A stretch of 64,000 bases of DNA from Sphingomonadaceae bacterium OTU29LAMAA1. GTDB lineage: Bacteria > Pseudomonadota > Alphaproteobacteria > Sphingomonadales > Sphingomonadaceae. The notes below the pieces were generated by a model. That model saw only the letters and a list, made by a program, of their open reading frames with translations. It was not told where the DNA came from and did not search any database. The position numbers and the translations under genes are program-made. The number at the start of each line of letters is the position of its first letter. Position 1 is the stretch's first letter. This document shows positions 5,687-23,813 of this stretch, in pieces. The stretch covers positions 167,001 through 231,000 of the forward strand of contig CP099617.1 in NCBI GenBank assembly GCA_024072375.1. The letters run 5' to 3'.

Positions 5687-6238
5687 GTGAGCGGCATCGC
5701 GTCGAAAAGCCAGTTGCGCATGTCGTTCCTGCGGTGGGCGGTGGTGACCGTGCCGTTGATCCTGTTGCTGGGCTTCGCGTCTGGGCGTGCGGTGCCTTCG
5801 GGTAGCGAGAACGGCTGGTACATGGCGCTGCAGAAGCCCGCTGTGACGCCGCCGGGTATCGTGTTCCCGATCGCGTGGACGACGCTTTACATCCTGCTGG
5901 GCCTTGCCGTCGCCGTCATCCTGCATGCGCGCGGGGCGAGGGGGCGGGGGCCGGCACTGGGTCTGTTTGCGATCCAGTTCGCCCTCAATCTTGCCTGGAC
6001 GCCACTGTTCTTCGGGATGCATCAGGTCGGAAGCGCTTTGCTCGTCATCGTCGCGATGCTGGTGCTGTCGATCGTCACGACGGTCCTGTTCGGCCGGATC
6101 CGTCCGCTCGCGGCGTGGCTCATGGTCCCGTATCTGGTGTGGATCAGTTTTGCCGGCGTGCTGACATGGCGGATCGGGCAACTGAACCCCGATGCGGAAA
6201 CCCTTGTGCCCGCGGCGCACACGTCCCAGATGCTCTGA
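5687..6238 (+). CDS. tspO: TspO/MBR-family tryptophan-rich sensory membrane protein
   Basis: 183 residues with five predicted membrane segments. The family hallmark WYMALQKPAVTPPGIVFPI and WTTLYILLG is present near residues 45-70, followed by NLAWTPLFF and LVPYLVWISFAGVLTWRI. TspO binds porphyrins and cholesterol-like ligands, and in alphaproteobacteria it affects tetrapyrrole and stress responses. The GTG start has a good GAGGAG site before it. An N-terminal extension of about 20 residues precedes the first helix. This is the free-standing TspO of the window. A second copy is fused to a flavin monooxygenase at 21224-22966. Confidence 0.93.
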   Translation: MSGIASKSQLRMSFLRWAVVTVPLILLLGFASGRAVPSGSENGWYMALQKPAVTPPGIVFPIAWTTLYILLGLAVAVILHARGARGRGPALGLFAIQFALNLAWTPLFFGMHQVGSALLVIVAMLVLSIVTTVLFGRIRPLAAWLMVPYLVWISFAGVLTWRIGQLNPDAETLVPAAHTSQML

Positions 6239-6265
6239 CGCACCTCCACGCCGGGAATAGTTTTT

Positions 6266-6559
6266 ATGCAGTCCGACAATCGCATGTTCGACGATATCGT
6301 GAAGCTCGTGAACGGCGCCGCCGGCACGCTTGCCGGGGTCGGCCGCGAAGCCGAGGCCGGCGCCCGGTCGCGTGCACGCGAATGGATCGGTGGCCTCGAC
6401 TTCGTCAGCCGCGACGAGTTCGAAGTGGTGAAGGCGATGGCGGTCGCCGCCCGCGACGAGAATGATGCCCTCAGGGCGCGCCTCGACGCACTCGAAGCCC
6501 GGTCGGCTACGTCGGCCCCCGCGCCGACTCCCGTCGGCGACCCGGTTCCTACCGCCTGA
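6266..6559 (+). CDS. ubiK: UbiK-family ubiquinone biosynthesis accessory factor
   Basis: 97 residues. It matches the UbiK/BMFP (formerly YqiC) layout: an N-terminal amphipathic region (MFDDIVKLVNGAAGTLAGVG), the DFVSRDEFEVVKAMAVAARDEN block, then a coiled coil (ALRARLDALEAR) and a Pro/Ala-rich tail. UbiK helps assemble the aerobic ubiquinone hydroxylation complex on lipid. It is a short helical protein without a catalytic site. It lies in the tspO-ubiK-ybjN-proC gene row, all on the plus strand. Confidence 0.85.
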   Translation: MQSDNRMFDDIVKLVNGAAGTLAGVGREAEAGARSRAREWIGGLDFVSRDEFEVVKAMAVAARDENDALRARLDALEARSATSAPAPTPVGDPVPTA

Positions 6560-6656
6560 CACAGTTTTCCACAGGTTTATCGACAGCCTTGTCCACGACG
6601 GGGTTGCCGACGGCTTTTTGCCCCGGCAGCCTTGTCGTGCGATAAGAGGCGTAACG

Positions 6657-19387: not shown

Positions 19388-20284
19388 CTATAGCGCCATG
19401 CCTGCGGCCGGGACGGTGTGCAGCCGTGCGATATCCTGTCGCGGCGGAGCACCGAACAGCCGGCGATATTCGCGGCTGAACTGGGACGGGCTTTCGTAGC
19501 CGACCGCGAAGCCCGCAGTTCCGGCGCTCGCCCCGCCGACCAGCATCAGTCGGCGCGCCTCCTGCAACCGCAACTGCTTTTGATATTCGAGCGGCGTCAT
19601 ATGGGTGATCGCCTTGAAATGCGCGTGCAGCGAGGACGGGCTCATGCCGGCTTCGGCCGCGACCTCCTCGATCCGGATCTGTCCATCGAAGCGCCGGCGG
19701 ATCGCCGCGATGGCGCGGCTCACCTGATTCAGATGGCTGCCGGCGGTCGCGACGTGGCGCAGCATCGGTCCGTGTGGCCCGGTGAGCAGCCGGTAGAGGA
19801 TCTCGCGCTCGATCAGCGGCGCGAGTGCGTCGATCGTTTCGGGACGATCCAGCAGCCGGACGAGGCGGCAGGCGGCGTCGATCAGGTCGGGGTCGCCGGG
19901 ATAGACGGCCAGTACCGGCAGATCGGTGCTGGACACGTCGCCGCCCTCGCTGACCATCAGATCGGCGAGCATCGCGGGATCGAGGTCGATCTTGCAGCAG
20001 AGATACGGCCTGTCGGGACTCGCATCGAGGACGTGGCCGACCAGCGGCAGATCGACCGAGACGAGCAGGTAATGCGCGGCGTCGTAGACCACGCTGCGAT
20101 CGCCGATCGAGACCCGCTTGGACCCTTGCGCGATCAGGCAAAGCGACGCCTCGTACACAGCGGGGGTCGGCGTGCTCGGCTGATCGGCGCGGATCAGCGA
20201 CAGGCGCGGCATGACGGTGGTGCAGATGCCCGTTCCATTGACGTGACGGTCGATCACGTCGGCGAGCTGGATGATCCTCTCCAT
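19388..20284 (-). CDS. AraC-family transcriptional regulator
   Basis: 298 residues. An N-terminal AraC_N-type effector domain (about 20-160: PTPAVYEASLCLIAQGSKRV) is followed by a double helix-turn-helix. The two helices are RIEEVAAEAGMSPSSLHAHF, and AVGYESPSQFSREYRRLFG near the end. This N-terminal type often sits next to oxidoreductase genes. It is divergent from the SDR gene at 20435, about 150 bases apart, and so is the obvious candidate regulator of the SDR/monooxygenase-TspO/DCC/DUF427 operon. The inducer is unknown. Confidence 0.9.
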   Translation of the reverse strand: MERIIQLADVIDRHVNGTGICTTVMPRLSLIRADQPSTPTPAVYEASLCLIAQGSKRVSIGDRSVVYDAAHYLLVSVDLPLVGHVLDASPDRPYLCCKIDLDPAMLADLMVSEGGDVSSTDLPVLAVYPGDPDLIDAACRLVRLLDRPETIDALAPLIEREILYRLLTGPHGPMLRHVATAGSHLNQVSRAIAAIRRRFDGQIRIEEVAAEAGMSPSSLHAHFKAITHMTPLEYQKQLRLQEARRLMLVGGASAGTAGFAVGYESPSQFSREYRRLFGAPPRQDIARLHTVPAAGMAL

Positions 20285-20434: not shown

Positions 20435-21160
20435 ATGACGCAGAACATCGACAAGGTCGTGCTGGTCACCGGCGCATCGAGCGGCATCGGCGAGGCGACG
20501 GTACGCGAACTGGCGGCGGCGGGCGCCCGGGTGTTCATCGGTGCGCGTCGCGGCGACCGGCTCCAGGCGCTGGCTGAGGAACTGGGCGACATGGTCGCGT
20601 GGCGCGAGCTGGACGTTACCGACGGCAGCGACTTCGATGCCTTTGCCGCGGCGGCGGTGGAACGGTTCGGGCGCGTCGACGTGCTGGTCAACAATGCCGG
20701 CGTGATGCCGCTGTCTCCGCTCGCCGCGCTGAAGCGGGACGAATGGAAGCGGATGATCGACGTCAACGTGCACGGCGTGCTCAACGGCATCGCCGCGGTG
20801 CTGCCGCGCTTCATCGCACAGGGCAGCGGCCATGTCGTCAACGTCGCCTCGGTCGCCGCGTACATGGTGATGCCGACTGCGGCGGTCTATTGCGCGACCA
20901 AACATGCGGTGCGGGCGATCACCGAAGGGCTGCGGCAGGAGCATGACGAAATCCGTTCCACGCTCGTCTCGCCCGGCGTGGTCGCGACCGAACTCGGCCA
21001 CGACATCACCGATCCTGCGGTCGCTGCGGCATTGAAGGGGTGGCGGCAGAAGTCGTTGACGCCGGATGCGATCGCGCGGGCGATCCGTTACGCGCTCGAA
21101 CAGCCGGAGGGCGTCGACATCAACGAGGTGATCGTGCGCCCGACTGCCGCCGACATGTAG
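20435..21160 (+). CDS. Short-chain dehydrogenase/reductase
   Basis: 241 residues, a classical SDR. The cofactor motif is VLVTGASSGIGEATVRELAA (about 9-28), NNAG follows, and the catalytic Ser and YxxxK are in VVNVASVAAYMVMPTAAVYCATKHA. GARRGDRLQ after the second strand suggests NADP preference. A GGAAAGGA ribosome site precedes ATG 20435. It is the first gene of a co-directional group with the flavin monooxygenase-TspO fusion 63 bases downstream, and is divergent from the AraC regulator. Substrate unknown. Confidence 0.9.
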   Translation: MTQNIDKVVLVTGASSGIGEATVRELAAAGARVFIGARRGDRLQALAEELGDMVAWRELDVTDGSDFDAFAAAAVERFGRVDVLVNNAGVMPLSPLAALKRDEWKRMIDVNVHGVLNGIAAVLPRFIAQGSGHVVNVASVAAYMVMPTAAVYCATKHAVRAITEGLRQEHDEIRSTLVSPGVVATELGHDITDPAVAAALKGWRQKSLTPDAIARAIRYALEQPEGVDINEVIVRPTAADM

Positions 21161-21223
21161 GCCTGAAGGCAGGCGACCTTCCGCCGCGTCGATCGTTGGG
21201 CGGGGCAGAGGAGAGCGTTTTCC

Positions 21224-22966
21224 ATGTCCCGCCGTATTCTGATCACCGGCGCCAGCGTCGCCGGCAACACCGCGGCATGGTGGCTGGGCCGCGCCGGGTT
21301 CGACGTAACGGTCGTGGAACGTACACCCGCCTTTCGCGACGGTGGTCAGAACGTCGACGTGCGCGGTGTCGGCCGCGATGTCATGCGGCGCATGGGGCTG
21401 GAGCAGGCGGCGCTGGATCGGGGAACCGGCGAGGAGGGGACGGCATGGGTCGAGGATGACGGCAGCGTGGCCGCACGGTTCCTGACGGCGGATCAGAAGA
21501 CGGACGGACCGACCGCAGAGATGGAGATCCTGCGCGGCGATCTCGCCCGTCTGCTCTACGAACCTGCTGCCGACCAGGCGACCTATCGTTTCGGCGACAG
21601 CATCGCGGCGATCACTGAGGATGGCGAGGCGGCGCGTGTGACGTTCGCCAGTGGCAGGACCGACCGTTATGATGCGGTGATCATCGCCGAAGGGGTCGGT
21701 TCTGCGACACGCGATCTGATCTTTCCGGGCGAGAATGCGCCGCGCTGGATGGATTTGACGATCGCCTATTTCACGATCCCGCATGCGGCGACCGATGATC
21801 GGCTGTGGCGATGGTACAATGCACCAGGCGGGCGCAGCGTCTCGCTTCGCCCCGATCGTCATGGCACGACGCGGGCGATGCTGTCCGTGCAGCACCCCGC
21901 CGGCGGCGAACAGGATTGGGATGTCGACCGCCAGAAGGCGTGGCTGCGCGAACGGTTCGCCGATGCCGGCTGGCAGTCCGCGCGCGTGCTGGATGGCATG
22001 GATGCGACCGACGATTTCTATTTCGACGTGCTGCGGCAGGTGCGGATGCCGCACTGGTCGAAGGGCAGGGTGGTGCTGACCGGCGACGCGGCATGGTGCG
22101 CGACGCCGATCGCGGGCATCGGCACGACGCTGGCGATCACCGGCGCCTATGTGTTGGCGGCCGAACTGGCGCGGTGCGACGCTATCGCTGACGGGGTTGC
22201 TGCATACGAACGCGCGATGCGGCCGATGGTCGAGGAGGCGCAGGGTGTGCCGAAGATCGCGCCGCGGTTGATGAACCCGCAGAGCCGGACGGGCATTCGC
22301 CTGCTGCACACGGCGCTCGCGGTGTCCAGCCGGCCGGCGTTCCGGAGTGTCGCGGGCAAGGTGTTCGGCGGCAACTCAGCGGAGCCCGACCTGTCCCGTT
22401 ATGACGGGGCAGGCGGCCCGGATCGCGCGCTCGTCGCGACGAGACAGGGCGCGCCGTCCTTGCCGGGCGGGCTGTCCCCGTTGCTGGCGGCGGGCGCGGT
22501 CGGCCTCGTGCTGGGTGCGAGCGCCATCGTCGGACGACGCAATGCGCCGGATCCGTCGCATCCTGATATCCGACGCTGGTATCGCCGCCTCGACAAGCCC
22601 GGGTTTACCCCACCCGATGCGGTGTTCGGGGCCGTGTGGCCGGTGTTGGAGGCCGGTCTGGCGGCCGGCGGTTATCGCCTGTTGCGACGGCCCTCCGGTA
22701 CGGCGCGCAATGCCGCGGTAGGGCTATGGTTGCTGAACACCGCGATGGTGGGCGGCTGGACGCAATTGTTCTTCCGCGAGCAGCGACTGGGATCGAGTGC
22801 CGCGGCGTCGGGCGCGATGGTCGCGTCCAGTGCCGCCTATGTCGCGACCGCCGCGTGGGTGGATCGACCGGCGGCGGCGGCAGGGGTGCCGTTCTTCGCC
22901 TGGCTCGGCTTCGCGACACTGCTTGCGACCAAGATCTGGCACGACAATCCGGCGAAGCGGCGATGA
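21224..22966 (+). CDS. FAD-dependent monooxygenase fused to a TspO domain
   Basis: 580 residues in two parts. Residues 1-385 are a PHBH-type flavoprotein: FAD motif ITGASVAGNTAAWWLGRAG, acidic VVER at the strand end, and the second FAD motif VVLTGDAAWCATPIAGIGT. Residues about 420-580 are a full TspO domain. One helix (LLAAGAVGLVLGASAIVG) leads into WYRRLDKPGFTPPDAVFGAV and then four more hydrophobic segments, ending KIWHDNPAKRR. The frame is continuous with no stop or shift at the join. TspO binds tetrapyrroles, so a membrane-anchored oxygenase acting on a porphyrin-like or isoprenoid ligand is a reasonable guess. It overlaps the DCC gene (ATGA). Confidence 0.88.
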   Translation: MSRRILITGASVAGNTAAWWLGRAGFDVTVVERTPAFRDGGQNVDVRGVGRDVMRRMGLEQAALDRGTGEEGTAWVEDDGSVAARFLTADQKTDGPTAEMEILRGDLARLLYEPAADQATYRFGDSIAAITEDGEAARVTFASGRTDRYDAVIIAEGVGSATRDLIFPGENAPRWMDLTIAYFTIPHAATDDRLWRWYNAPGGRSVSLRPDRHGTTRAMLSVQHPAGGEQDWDVDRQKAWLRERFADAGWQSARVLDGMDATDDFYFDVLRQVRMPHWSKGRVVLTGDAAWCATPIAGIGTTLAITGAYVLAAELARCDAIADGVAAYERAMRPMVEEAQGVPKIAPRLMNPQSRTGIRLLHTALAVSSRPAFRSVAGKVFGGNSAEPDLSRYDGAGGPDRALVATRQGAPSLPGGLSPLLAAGAVGLVLGASAIVGRRNAPDPSHPDIRRWYRRLDKPGFTPPDAVFGAVWPVLEAGLAAGGYRLLRRPSGTARNAAVGLWLLNTAMVGGWTQLFFREQRLGSSAAASGAMVASSAAYVATAAWVDRPAAAAGVPFFAWLGFATLLATKIWHDNPAKRR

Positions 22967-23322
22967 GCGGCGTGACCGTCTGGCACGACGGAAATTGTCC
23001 GCTTTGCCGGCGCGAGATCGCGCTGATGCGGCGGCTCGACCGGGGCGGCAGGATCACGTTCGTCGATGCGACCGGGCCGGAGGTCTGCCCATCCGATCGC
23101 GCCGCATTGCTCGCACGGTTCCACGCGATGGAGGACGGCAGAATGCTGTCCGGCGCCGCAGCATTCGCGGCGATGTGGCGCGCCATTCCGTTGCTACGGC
23201 CGATCGGTCTGCTCGCGCGGTACAGGCCGGTGCTTCGTCTGCTGGAGCGCGCCTATTCCCGGTTTCTGATCGTCCGCCCGCGTCTGCAACGCTGGCTGCT
23301 CCGGCGCGAGGCACGCGCGTGA
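22963..23322 (+). CDS. DCC-family (DUF393) thiol-disulfide oxidoreductase-like protein
   Basis: 119 residues. The DUF393 signature DGNCPLCRREI starts near residue 8, giving a thioredoxin-like Cys pair. It is followed by RITFVDATGPE and SGAAAFAAMWRAIPLLRPIG, both usual for the family. The C-terminus is hydrophobic and basic (LLARYRPVLRLLERAYSRFL), which suggests membrane association. Its ATG overlaps the stop of the monooxygenase-TspO gene and its stop overlaps the GTG of the DUF427 gene. This tight coupling implies that the three proteins act together. The function of DUF393 proteins is poorly known. Confidence 0.88.
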   Translation: MSGVTVWHDGNCPLCRREIALMRRLDRGGRITFVDATGPEVCPSDRAALLARFHAMEDGRMLSGAAAFAAMWRAIPLLRPIGLLARYRPVLRLLERAYSRFLIVRPRLQRWLLRREARA

Positions 23323-23813
23323 GGCCAAGACCCGATCCCGTCGCCCCCGGACAGGAGAGCGTCTGGCGTTATCCGCGTCCCGCTATCGCCCAGCCGGGTG
23401 GCCGGCATATCCGTATCGAGCATGGCGGGATCGTCGTGGCCGATACCAACGCCGCCGTGCGTACCATCGAGACGAGCCATCCGCCAAGCTGGTACATCCC
23501 GCCGGATGCGATCACGGCGGGCCTGCTCCGCGCGTCCTCGCGGCGATCGTTCTGCGAATGGAAAGGCGAGGCGCGCTACTGGCATCTGGATATCGACGGG
23601 CAGACGCTCCGCGATGTCGGGTGGAGCTATGCCGACCCGACGCCTCCCTTCGCCATCCTGCGCGATCACGTGGCATTCTATGCGGGTCCGTTCGACAGCT
23701 GCACCGTGGACGGCGAACGGGTTCGGCCGCAGCCCGGCGGCTTTTATGGCGGATGGATCACGTCCGATCTCGCCGGTCCGTTCAAGGGGGTAACCGGCAG
23801 CATGGGCTGGTGA
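23319..23813 (+). CDS. DUF427-family protein
   Basis: 164 residues from a GTG that overlaps the DCC stop (GTGA). The DUF427 core runs from HIRIEHGGIVVADTNAAVRT through PPSWYIPPDAI, FCEWKGEARYWHL and GWSYADPTPPF to DHVAFYAGPFD. A C-terminal extension carries GGFYGGWITSDLAGPFKG. The family is beta-rich and cytoplasmic, with no known reaction. The FCEWKGEA block matches the conserved CPWKG segment in which a Cys is usual. Its place as last gene of the SDR/monooxygenase-TspO/DCC operon is the best clue to its role. Confidence 0.9.
   Translation: MRPRPDPVAPGQESVWRYPRPAIAQPGGRHIRIEHGGIVVADTNAAVRTIETSHPPSWYIPPDAITAGLLRASSRRSFCEWKGEARYWHLDIDGQTLRDVGWSYADPTPPFAILRDHVAFYAGPFDSCTVDGERVRPQPGGFYGGWITSDLAGPFKGVTGSMGW

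Follow-up and report, generated by a model that had tools for sequence, protein, structure and literature searches.

What could a cell gain from a flavin monooxygenase (FMO) that continues, in the same polypeptide, into a TspO domain? This question is raised by a fusion gene in a DNA stretch of 64,000 nucleotides from Sphingomonadaceae bacterium OTU29LAMAA1 (contig CP099617.1, positions 167,001 to 231,000), called the window below. The fusion recurs within the genus of the window, both of its domains are under purifying selection, and six of seven residues known to line a TSPO ligand pocket are conserved in it. The reading preferred here, with a probability of roughly 0.45, is that the gene encodes a membrane-tethered, class A-type FMO which would hydroxylate a hydrophobic, possibly tetrapyrrole, ligand held by the TspO part.

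The function of TspO is an old open question, and the fusion would give the TspO family an enzyme partner that can be tested. Searches of the open-licence literature in PubMed Central (PMC) retrieved no report of an FMO-TspO fusion, and the word "fused" is absent from PMC4237140 and PMC8243069. The first-pass annotation, made from the sequence alone, had known of no described system of this composition, and none was found in this literature. As far as it goes, both domains are known, whereas their union, its tail-anchored derivatives and the gene module around it are undescribed.

The locus and its genes

The gene order given in the first-pass annotation, with consecutive genes for a short-chain dehydrogenase/reductase (SDR), the fusion, a DCC protein and a DUF427 protein and with a divergent AraC gene, was found as claimed, and all defining Pfam matches of the five genes exceed the curated cut-offs. 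The fusion likewise lies in one uninterrupted frame without a stop. The features are:

21224-22966, plus strand: FMO-TspO fusion gene, 580 codons in a single frame
21224-22393, plus strand: class A-like FMO domain, residues 1-390 (FAD_binding_3, PF01494, 78.3 bits, cut-off 22)
22394-22471, plus strand: linker, residues 391-416, with low model confidence (predicted local distance difference test, pLDDT) and weak constraint
22472-22951, plus strand: TspO/MBR domain, residues 417-576 (TspO_MBR, PF03073, 92.8 bits, cut-off 24)
22963-23322, plus strand: DCC1-like (DUF393) protein (PF04134, 71.8 bits, cut-off 27.8), CxxC motif DGNCPLC
23319-23813, plus strand: DUF427 protein with GTG start (PF04248, 111.5 bits, cut-off 22.1)
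21173-21197, plus strand: promoter-like element GCGAC-N16-CGTT, ending 26 bp 5′ of the fusion start
20435-21160, plus strand: SDR gene (adh_short, 187.8 bits, cut-off 26.6), adjacent, judged outside the unit
19388-20284, minus strand: AraC-type regulator (AraC_N, 184.7 bits, cut-off 24.2), judged outside the unit

The overlaps described earlier hold for the last three genes, the fusion and DCC genes sharing ATGA and the DCC and DUF427 genes GTGA, but not for the SDR gene. Since the latter ends 63 bp before the fusion, coupling by overlap is limited to the last three genes. DUF427 is a domain of unknown function with a beta-tent fold, as in MsrB and others (PMC4287342); the nearest solved chain to the DUF427 protein of the window is 3djm (E 1.6e-7).

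Distribution of the fusion

A search of 295 genomes from the genus yielded 24, the window included, with a full-length FMO-TspO fusion that has no internal stop. When 396 genomes were drawn from the order, three were carriers, all from the window's genus, and the fusion was found in none of the 24 genomes sampled from other genera. A protein database search assigned TspO_MBR (PF03073) to 108 of the 120 top-ranked clusters listed. The fusion is therefore neither a chance event nor an assembly error, which settles the concern, raised in the first-pass annotation, that it might be confined to this genome or be an artefact. The nearest named relatives of the window FMO in the FMO tree belong to Sphingomonas.

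A few records bear other names. Among the best 120 clusters, one is labelled as a metagenome-assembled genome (MAG) of Caulobacteraceae and one as a MAG of Janthinobacterium, the labels being those given in the records. A further record is labelled Microvirga sp. SRT01; its coordinates match those of genome G122, which the genus-wide search places in the window's genus.

The flavin monooxygenase part

Class A flavin monooxygenases are strictly defined by a glycine-rich FAD motif, a DG motif and a GD motif. The glycine-rich motif of the window FMO reads GASVAG, with the first glycine kept in all 93 and the last in 92 of 93 orthologues; the middle position is serine instead of glycine. R47 is present in 93/93 orthologues and the GD motif in 92/93. 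Under the strict definition, the glycine-rich and GD motifs are thus in place and the DG motif is not. Because the latter is Glu-Gly and not Asp-Gly, the FMO is called class A-like and is assigned to PF01494 only.

In sequence as well as in fold, the FMO part is most similar to the type 1 tetracycline destructases Tet(50), Tet(51), Tet(55) and Tet(56) (5tul, E 1.3e-54, by sequence). The best Foldseek match, obtained with the first structure model (mean pLDDT 71.8), is Tet(50) (5tue, E 1.7e-29), and identities in the fold alignments amount to 28-32%. The window FMO differs from these enzymes in the glutamate that replaces the aspartate of the DG motif and in its C-terminal TspO domain. An assignment as type 1 tetracycline destructase (NF033476, tet_destruct) was rejected at 206.3 bits against a cut-off of 550. 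The best NCBIfam models are those of PRK07588- and PRK05868-type FAD-binding proteins with 259 and 231 bits, below their cut-offs of 454 and 536, and these models end before the TspO part.

The TspO part

Five membrane helices are predicted in the TspO part (residues 419-440, 465-487, 493-518, 522-546 and 548-574). In a structure model with a mean pLDDT of 84.2 they reach about 70-92 (in blocks of ten residues), and the linker at 397-413 falls below 50. The ligand pocket of BcTSPO comprises Y32, P42, W51, N87, W138, A142 and L145 (PMC7956637). When these positions, as excerpted there, are transferred by alignment, the equivalents of Y32, P42, W51, W138, A142 and L145 are kept in all 24 fusions. 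The seventh, N87, is replaced in every fusion. BcTSPO (4RYI) and RsTSPO (4UC1) share with the fusion the TspO_MBR domain, the five predicted helices and these six of seven residues of the PK11195 pocket. They differ from the TspO of the window, which is placed behind a flavin monooxygenase and belongs to the fusions with valine or isoleucine at the N87 position.

A second, stand-alone TspO gene lies at about 5687-6238 (plus strand) of the window, some 15 kb upstream of the fusion (PF03073, E 3.8e-44). The TspO part of the fusion is 33% identical to it.

Stand-alone monooxygenases and the resident TspO module

Neighbourhoods were compared at 181 loci including the window. After removal of 15 loci with duplicate anchors, 166 remained (24 fused, 69 FMO-only and 73 TspO-only); the TspO-only set comprises 70 of 82 such places from the search of 295 genomes plus three others. 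The loci were picked for their likeness to the fusion, so the neighbour rates are biased. FMO-only genes were found in Methylobacterium, Xanthomonas, Rhizobium, Agrobacterium, Aureimonas, Sphingomonas and others, with a MarR gene directly upstream in 31/69 loci. Many of these records name a leaf origin in their titles, which is an impression without a base rate.

The TspO-only loci show a glutaredoxin gene upstream (27/73) and DCC (37/73), DUF427 (25/73) or photolyase (3/73) genes, DCC lying downstream; 26/73 have none of these. A resident module of glutaredoxin, TspO, DCC and DUF427 genes is seen in part of the loci L044-L050, L134-L152 and L173-L191 and in others. The identities of MarR and glutaredoxin are backed by Pfam for one example protein each. 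For a photolyase of the module, the best solved matches were 8oet and 2xry, which we take to be class II CPD (cyclobutane pyrimidine dimer) photolyases. A search of the window genome for a close photolyase homologue gave just a 30% partial match.

The table of domain pairs and neighbours that had been proposed for this locus shows that the FMO-TspO pair recurs with DCC after it in 14 and with DUF427 in 14 of the 24 fused loci, while neither glutaredoxin nor MarR occurs at any of them. The downstream sets are DCC plus DUF427 (7), DCC (5), DUF427 (4), DCC plus DUF427 plus photolyase (2), photolyase (1), DUF427 plus photolyase (1) and none (4). At least one of DCC, DUF427 and photolyase is kept at 20/24 fused loci.

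Where an unfused FMO (at least 68% identity) occurs, 9 of 12 genomes also have a separate TspO (E<=1e-50), compared with 70 of 259 without such an FMO (Fisher p 0.001, uncorrected for kinship, drawn from the 295 genomes); none of the 24 fused genomes has one. Two older pieces were likely joined, a stand-alone FMO, often behind MarR, and the resident glutaredoxin-TspO-DCC-DUF427 module.

Excerpts on Pseudomonas give GrxC and PhrB as predicted TSPO partners (PMC4237140, PMC8243069), and a glutaredoxin and a photolyase likewise adjoin some of the resident sphingomonad TspO genes. The Pseudomonas case (TspO-GrxC-PhrB, PMC4237140) is a STRING prediction without a fusion, whereas in the present one DCC and DUF427 belong to the observed gene order and one clade has the FMO fused to TspO.

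Joining and fission

In the FMO tree, the 24 fused and nine unfused rows form one clade with a support of 99 in the SH-aLRT (Shimodaira-Hasegawa-like approximate likelihood ratio test), apart from all 31 rows of MarR-associated FMOs. The FMO and TspO trees are of a quick kind with SH-aLRT support only. For the TspO tree, the canonical TspO of the window served as the root; as the branch of the latter is very long (10), the deep order of this tree was not used.

Remnants of former neighbours were seen by eye. An FMO tail stands in front of TspO at L037, L140 and L144. DUF427 directly follows the FMO at L106 and L171, as does photolyase at L074, and the C-terminus of P0116 consists of transmembrane helix 1 plus a DUF427 tail. 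For several loci, these by-eye remnants indicate the direction of change. One joining followed by several fissions seems to be the simplest account of the trees.

Selection and tail-anchored monooxygenases

Among the fused genes, the median pairwise ratio of nonsynonymous to synonymous substitution rates (dN/dS) is 0.25 for the FMO and 0.19 for the TspO part (180 of 276 pairs, FMO dS < 0.8) and 0.71 for the linker (162 pairs, short and noisy), the pairs being non-independent. Purifying selection acts on both domains and is much weaker on the linker.

Among the nine FMOs of the fusion clade that lack TspO, five end in a single, strongly hydrophobic C-terminal helix (L035, L036, L068, L071 and L074, four of the five being one subclade). 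The same holds for all 12 clusters without TspO in the score-ranked top 120 (P0108-P0114 and P0116-P0120), which lie outside the tree. No C-terminal membrane helix was found at the 60 FMO loci outside the fusion clade. The helix is apparently a remnant of TspO helix 1, and because it occurs in five of nine TspO-less FMOs of the clade compared with 0/60 outside, membrane anchoring of the FMO looks as if it were under selection. These derivatives lend independent support to the membrane-anchored oxygenase that the first-pass annotation had proposed and that is predicted here as well.

They also bear on two other explanations. According to the first, the fusion would be an accident of position: an FMO landed before TspO, loss of the intervening stop and start tied the domains together, and they work independently under a shared promoter. 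The repeated fission in both directions, the TspO found elsewhere in 9 of the 12 genomes with an unfused FMO and the weakly constrained linker are in line with this. However, 24 genomes retain both domains without an intervening stop and under purifying selection, and the helix kept at five of the nine TspO-less loci would be unexpected if membrane attachment were irrelevant. On balance this explanation is somewhat unlikely, though the most serious of the alternatives.

According to the second, the TspO part would act only as an anchor, and the FMO would be a detoxifying hydroxylase for lipophilic compounds of microbes or plants that it encounters at the membrane. Tet(50), Tet(55) and Tet(56), to which the FMO is most closely related among solved structures, fit such a role, as do the MarR genes upstream of 31 of the 69 unfused FMOs and the very existence of single-helix tail anchors. 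Against it, the conservation of six of seven ligand residues in 24/24 fusions exceeds the needs of an anchor, the TspO part has a dN/dS of 0.19, and the FMO scores only 206 of the 550 bits required by the tet_destruct model. We regard it as unlikely, and as a weaker candidate than the accident of position.

Proposed function

The preferred reading, a tethered FMO acting on a ligand held by TspO, would have arisen when an FMO gene was placed in frame ahead of the TspO gene of a resident sphingomonad module, which sometimes includes a photolyase. The TspO part is predicted to tether the FMO to the membrane, and the FMO, which would face the cytosol, to hydroxylate a hydrophobic ligand with FAD, NAD(P)H and oxygen. 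TspO may deliver the substrate to it, with the DCC and DUF427 proteins as putative redox accessories, and the system could act against photo-oxidative stress or stress by toxic aromatic or hydrophobic compounds. For the protective role and the substrate supply by TspO, this proposal draws on the company of the resident genes, published TSPO work and general knowledge of class A monooxygenases. Since TSPO proteins bind and break down porphyrins, as excerpts of PMC4237140 and PMC4926414 state, tetrapyrroles would be the leading substrate candidates. In addition, BcTSPO is described to limit porphyrin accumulation under anoxic conditions (PMC13185565).

Several observations weigh against this reading. 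The equivalent of N87, a ligand residue of the excerpted BcTSPO pocket, is valine in 16 and isoleucine in 8 of the 24 fusions. In the FMO part, glutamate replaces the aspartate of the DG motif (residue 156) in 93/93 orthologues, both outgroup rows having aspartate. The lysine and arginine content of the TspO loops is 7.0, 3.0 and 3.1 in loop 1, loop 3 and the C-terminal tail versus 3.7 and 2.0 in loops 2 and 4, with similar values in unfused relatives. These loop charges predict a TspO with its N-terminus outside, which does not agree with an N-terminal FMO in the cytosol; for TSPO, varying orientations have been reported (PMC8243069, excerpt).

Further points of this kind come from the gene company and the history. 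A photolyase adjoins only 4/24 fusions, none of DCC, DUF427 and photolyase is present at another four, and a separate TspO is missing from three of the 12 genomes whose FMO is unfused. The fused state requires six changes on the FMO tree and seven on the TspO tree. At L138 (about 6000-6638), the 5′ element of the fusion and about 20 FMO codons stand in frame with TspO (by eye), which is a putative natural internal deletion with loss of the remaining FMO. The FMOs of L106, L171 and L169 have no membrane helix and that of L166 no clear one. As fission recurs, joint action of FMO and TspO is not obligatory.

A narrower version would make the fusion a dedicated tetrapyrrole or photosensitiser monooxygenase, in which TspO would collect porphyrin-like pigments within the inner membrane and pass them on to the tethered FMO, to be degraded with NAD(P)H and independently of light. 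We consider it doubtful, slightly more so than TspO as an anchor only. If it were true, TspO would have its bacterial role in the genus as a presenter of substrate for redox enzymes (FMO, DCC and glutaredoxin).

With a natural fusion, natural deletions on either side and a module that recurs at the unfused form, the question of TspO function becomes a substrate test on one protein. Natural variants for such a test are ready-made, namely the fusion, the TspO-only proteins and the tail-anchored FMOs.

Upstream elements

A 36 bp motif upstream of the fusion is common to 20 fused loci (four near-copies left out) and reaches an information content of 30.6 bits, compared with 13.6-14.6 bits in six single-base shuffles, which were run with fewer restarts. 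Its core, RAC-N15-17-CGTT, lies within 62 bp 5′ of 18/24 fusions, where 0.26 would be expected, and in the window it is formed by GCGAC at 21173-21177 and CGTT at 21194-21197. The core was found at 3/69 FMO-only, 4/46 TspO and 0/27 glutaredoxin-TspO loci. Present whatever gene lies upstream, this conserved element is a putative promoter of the fusion.

The resident module has an element of its own, GGAAC-N16-CGCT, which occurs at 23/27 glutaredoxin-TspO loci and at 15/20 TspO-DCC loci without glutaredoxin. It was seen at 2/26 TspO loci with neither glutaredoxin nor DCC, at 1/24 fusions and at 0/69 FMO-only loci. The spacer is exactly 16 in 40/40 cases, with about 0.1 hits per group expected by chance. 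This pattern and that of the fusion were both defined post hoc, with the motif already in view.

The module element is one base away from the consensus of EcfG, the regulator of the general stress response, excerpted for Sphingopyxis (GGAAC-N16-CGTT, PMC7083833); for S. melonis the consensus is given as GGAAC-N17-20-GTT (PMC6599016). An EcfG promoter in the strict form GGAAC-N16-CGTT was rejected, with 0/24 fusions, 0/69 FMO, 0/46 TspO and 0/27 glutaredoxin-TspO loci, and the elements found are merely similar to it. A regulon of the commonest form of the module element, GGAACGTC-N13-CGCT, was rejected too. Eight genomes contained 22 sites compared with 18 for the reversed control, and the one to four sites per genome correspond to the background level. 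In the window genome, four sites with one mismatch stand against four in the control.

The AraC-SDR pair

The first-pass annotation had described an AraC-flanked operon, in which AraC would control the SDR, FMO-TspO, DCC and DUF427 genes as a single pathway. These four genes are indeed adjacent and on the same strand, with a gap of only 63 bp between SDR and fusion, and the two may be co-transcribed in the genome of the window. Nevertheless, the window-type SDR and AraC each adjoin 1/24 fusions, namely that of the window, and the pair is independent of the fusion in the 29 other SDR loci that were fetched. The fusion, in turn, has its own conserved 5′ element regardless of its upstream neighbour. 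The operon as a unit was therefore abandoned, and control of a single pathway by AraC is very improbable. From the first interpretation, the recurrence of the fusion, its DCC and DUF427 company and the ligand residues stand, and the membership of AraC and SDR does not.

The pair was instead rejected as part of the fusion system in favour of a separate recurring locus. SDR relatives (E<=1e-60) are present in 115/295 genomes of the genus, and a divergent AraC gene lies beside the SDR in 30/30 fetched SDR loci, the window included. Away from the fusion, the AraC-SDR pair is seen at the loci L214-L242 of the genus.

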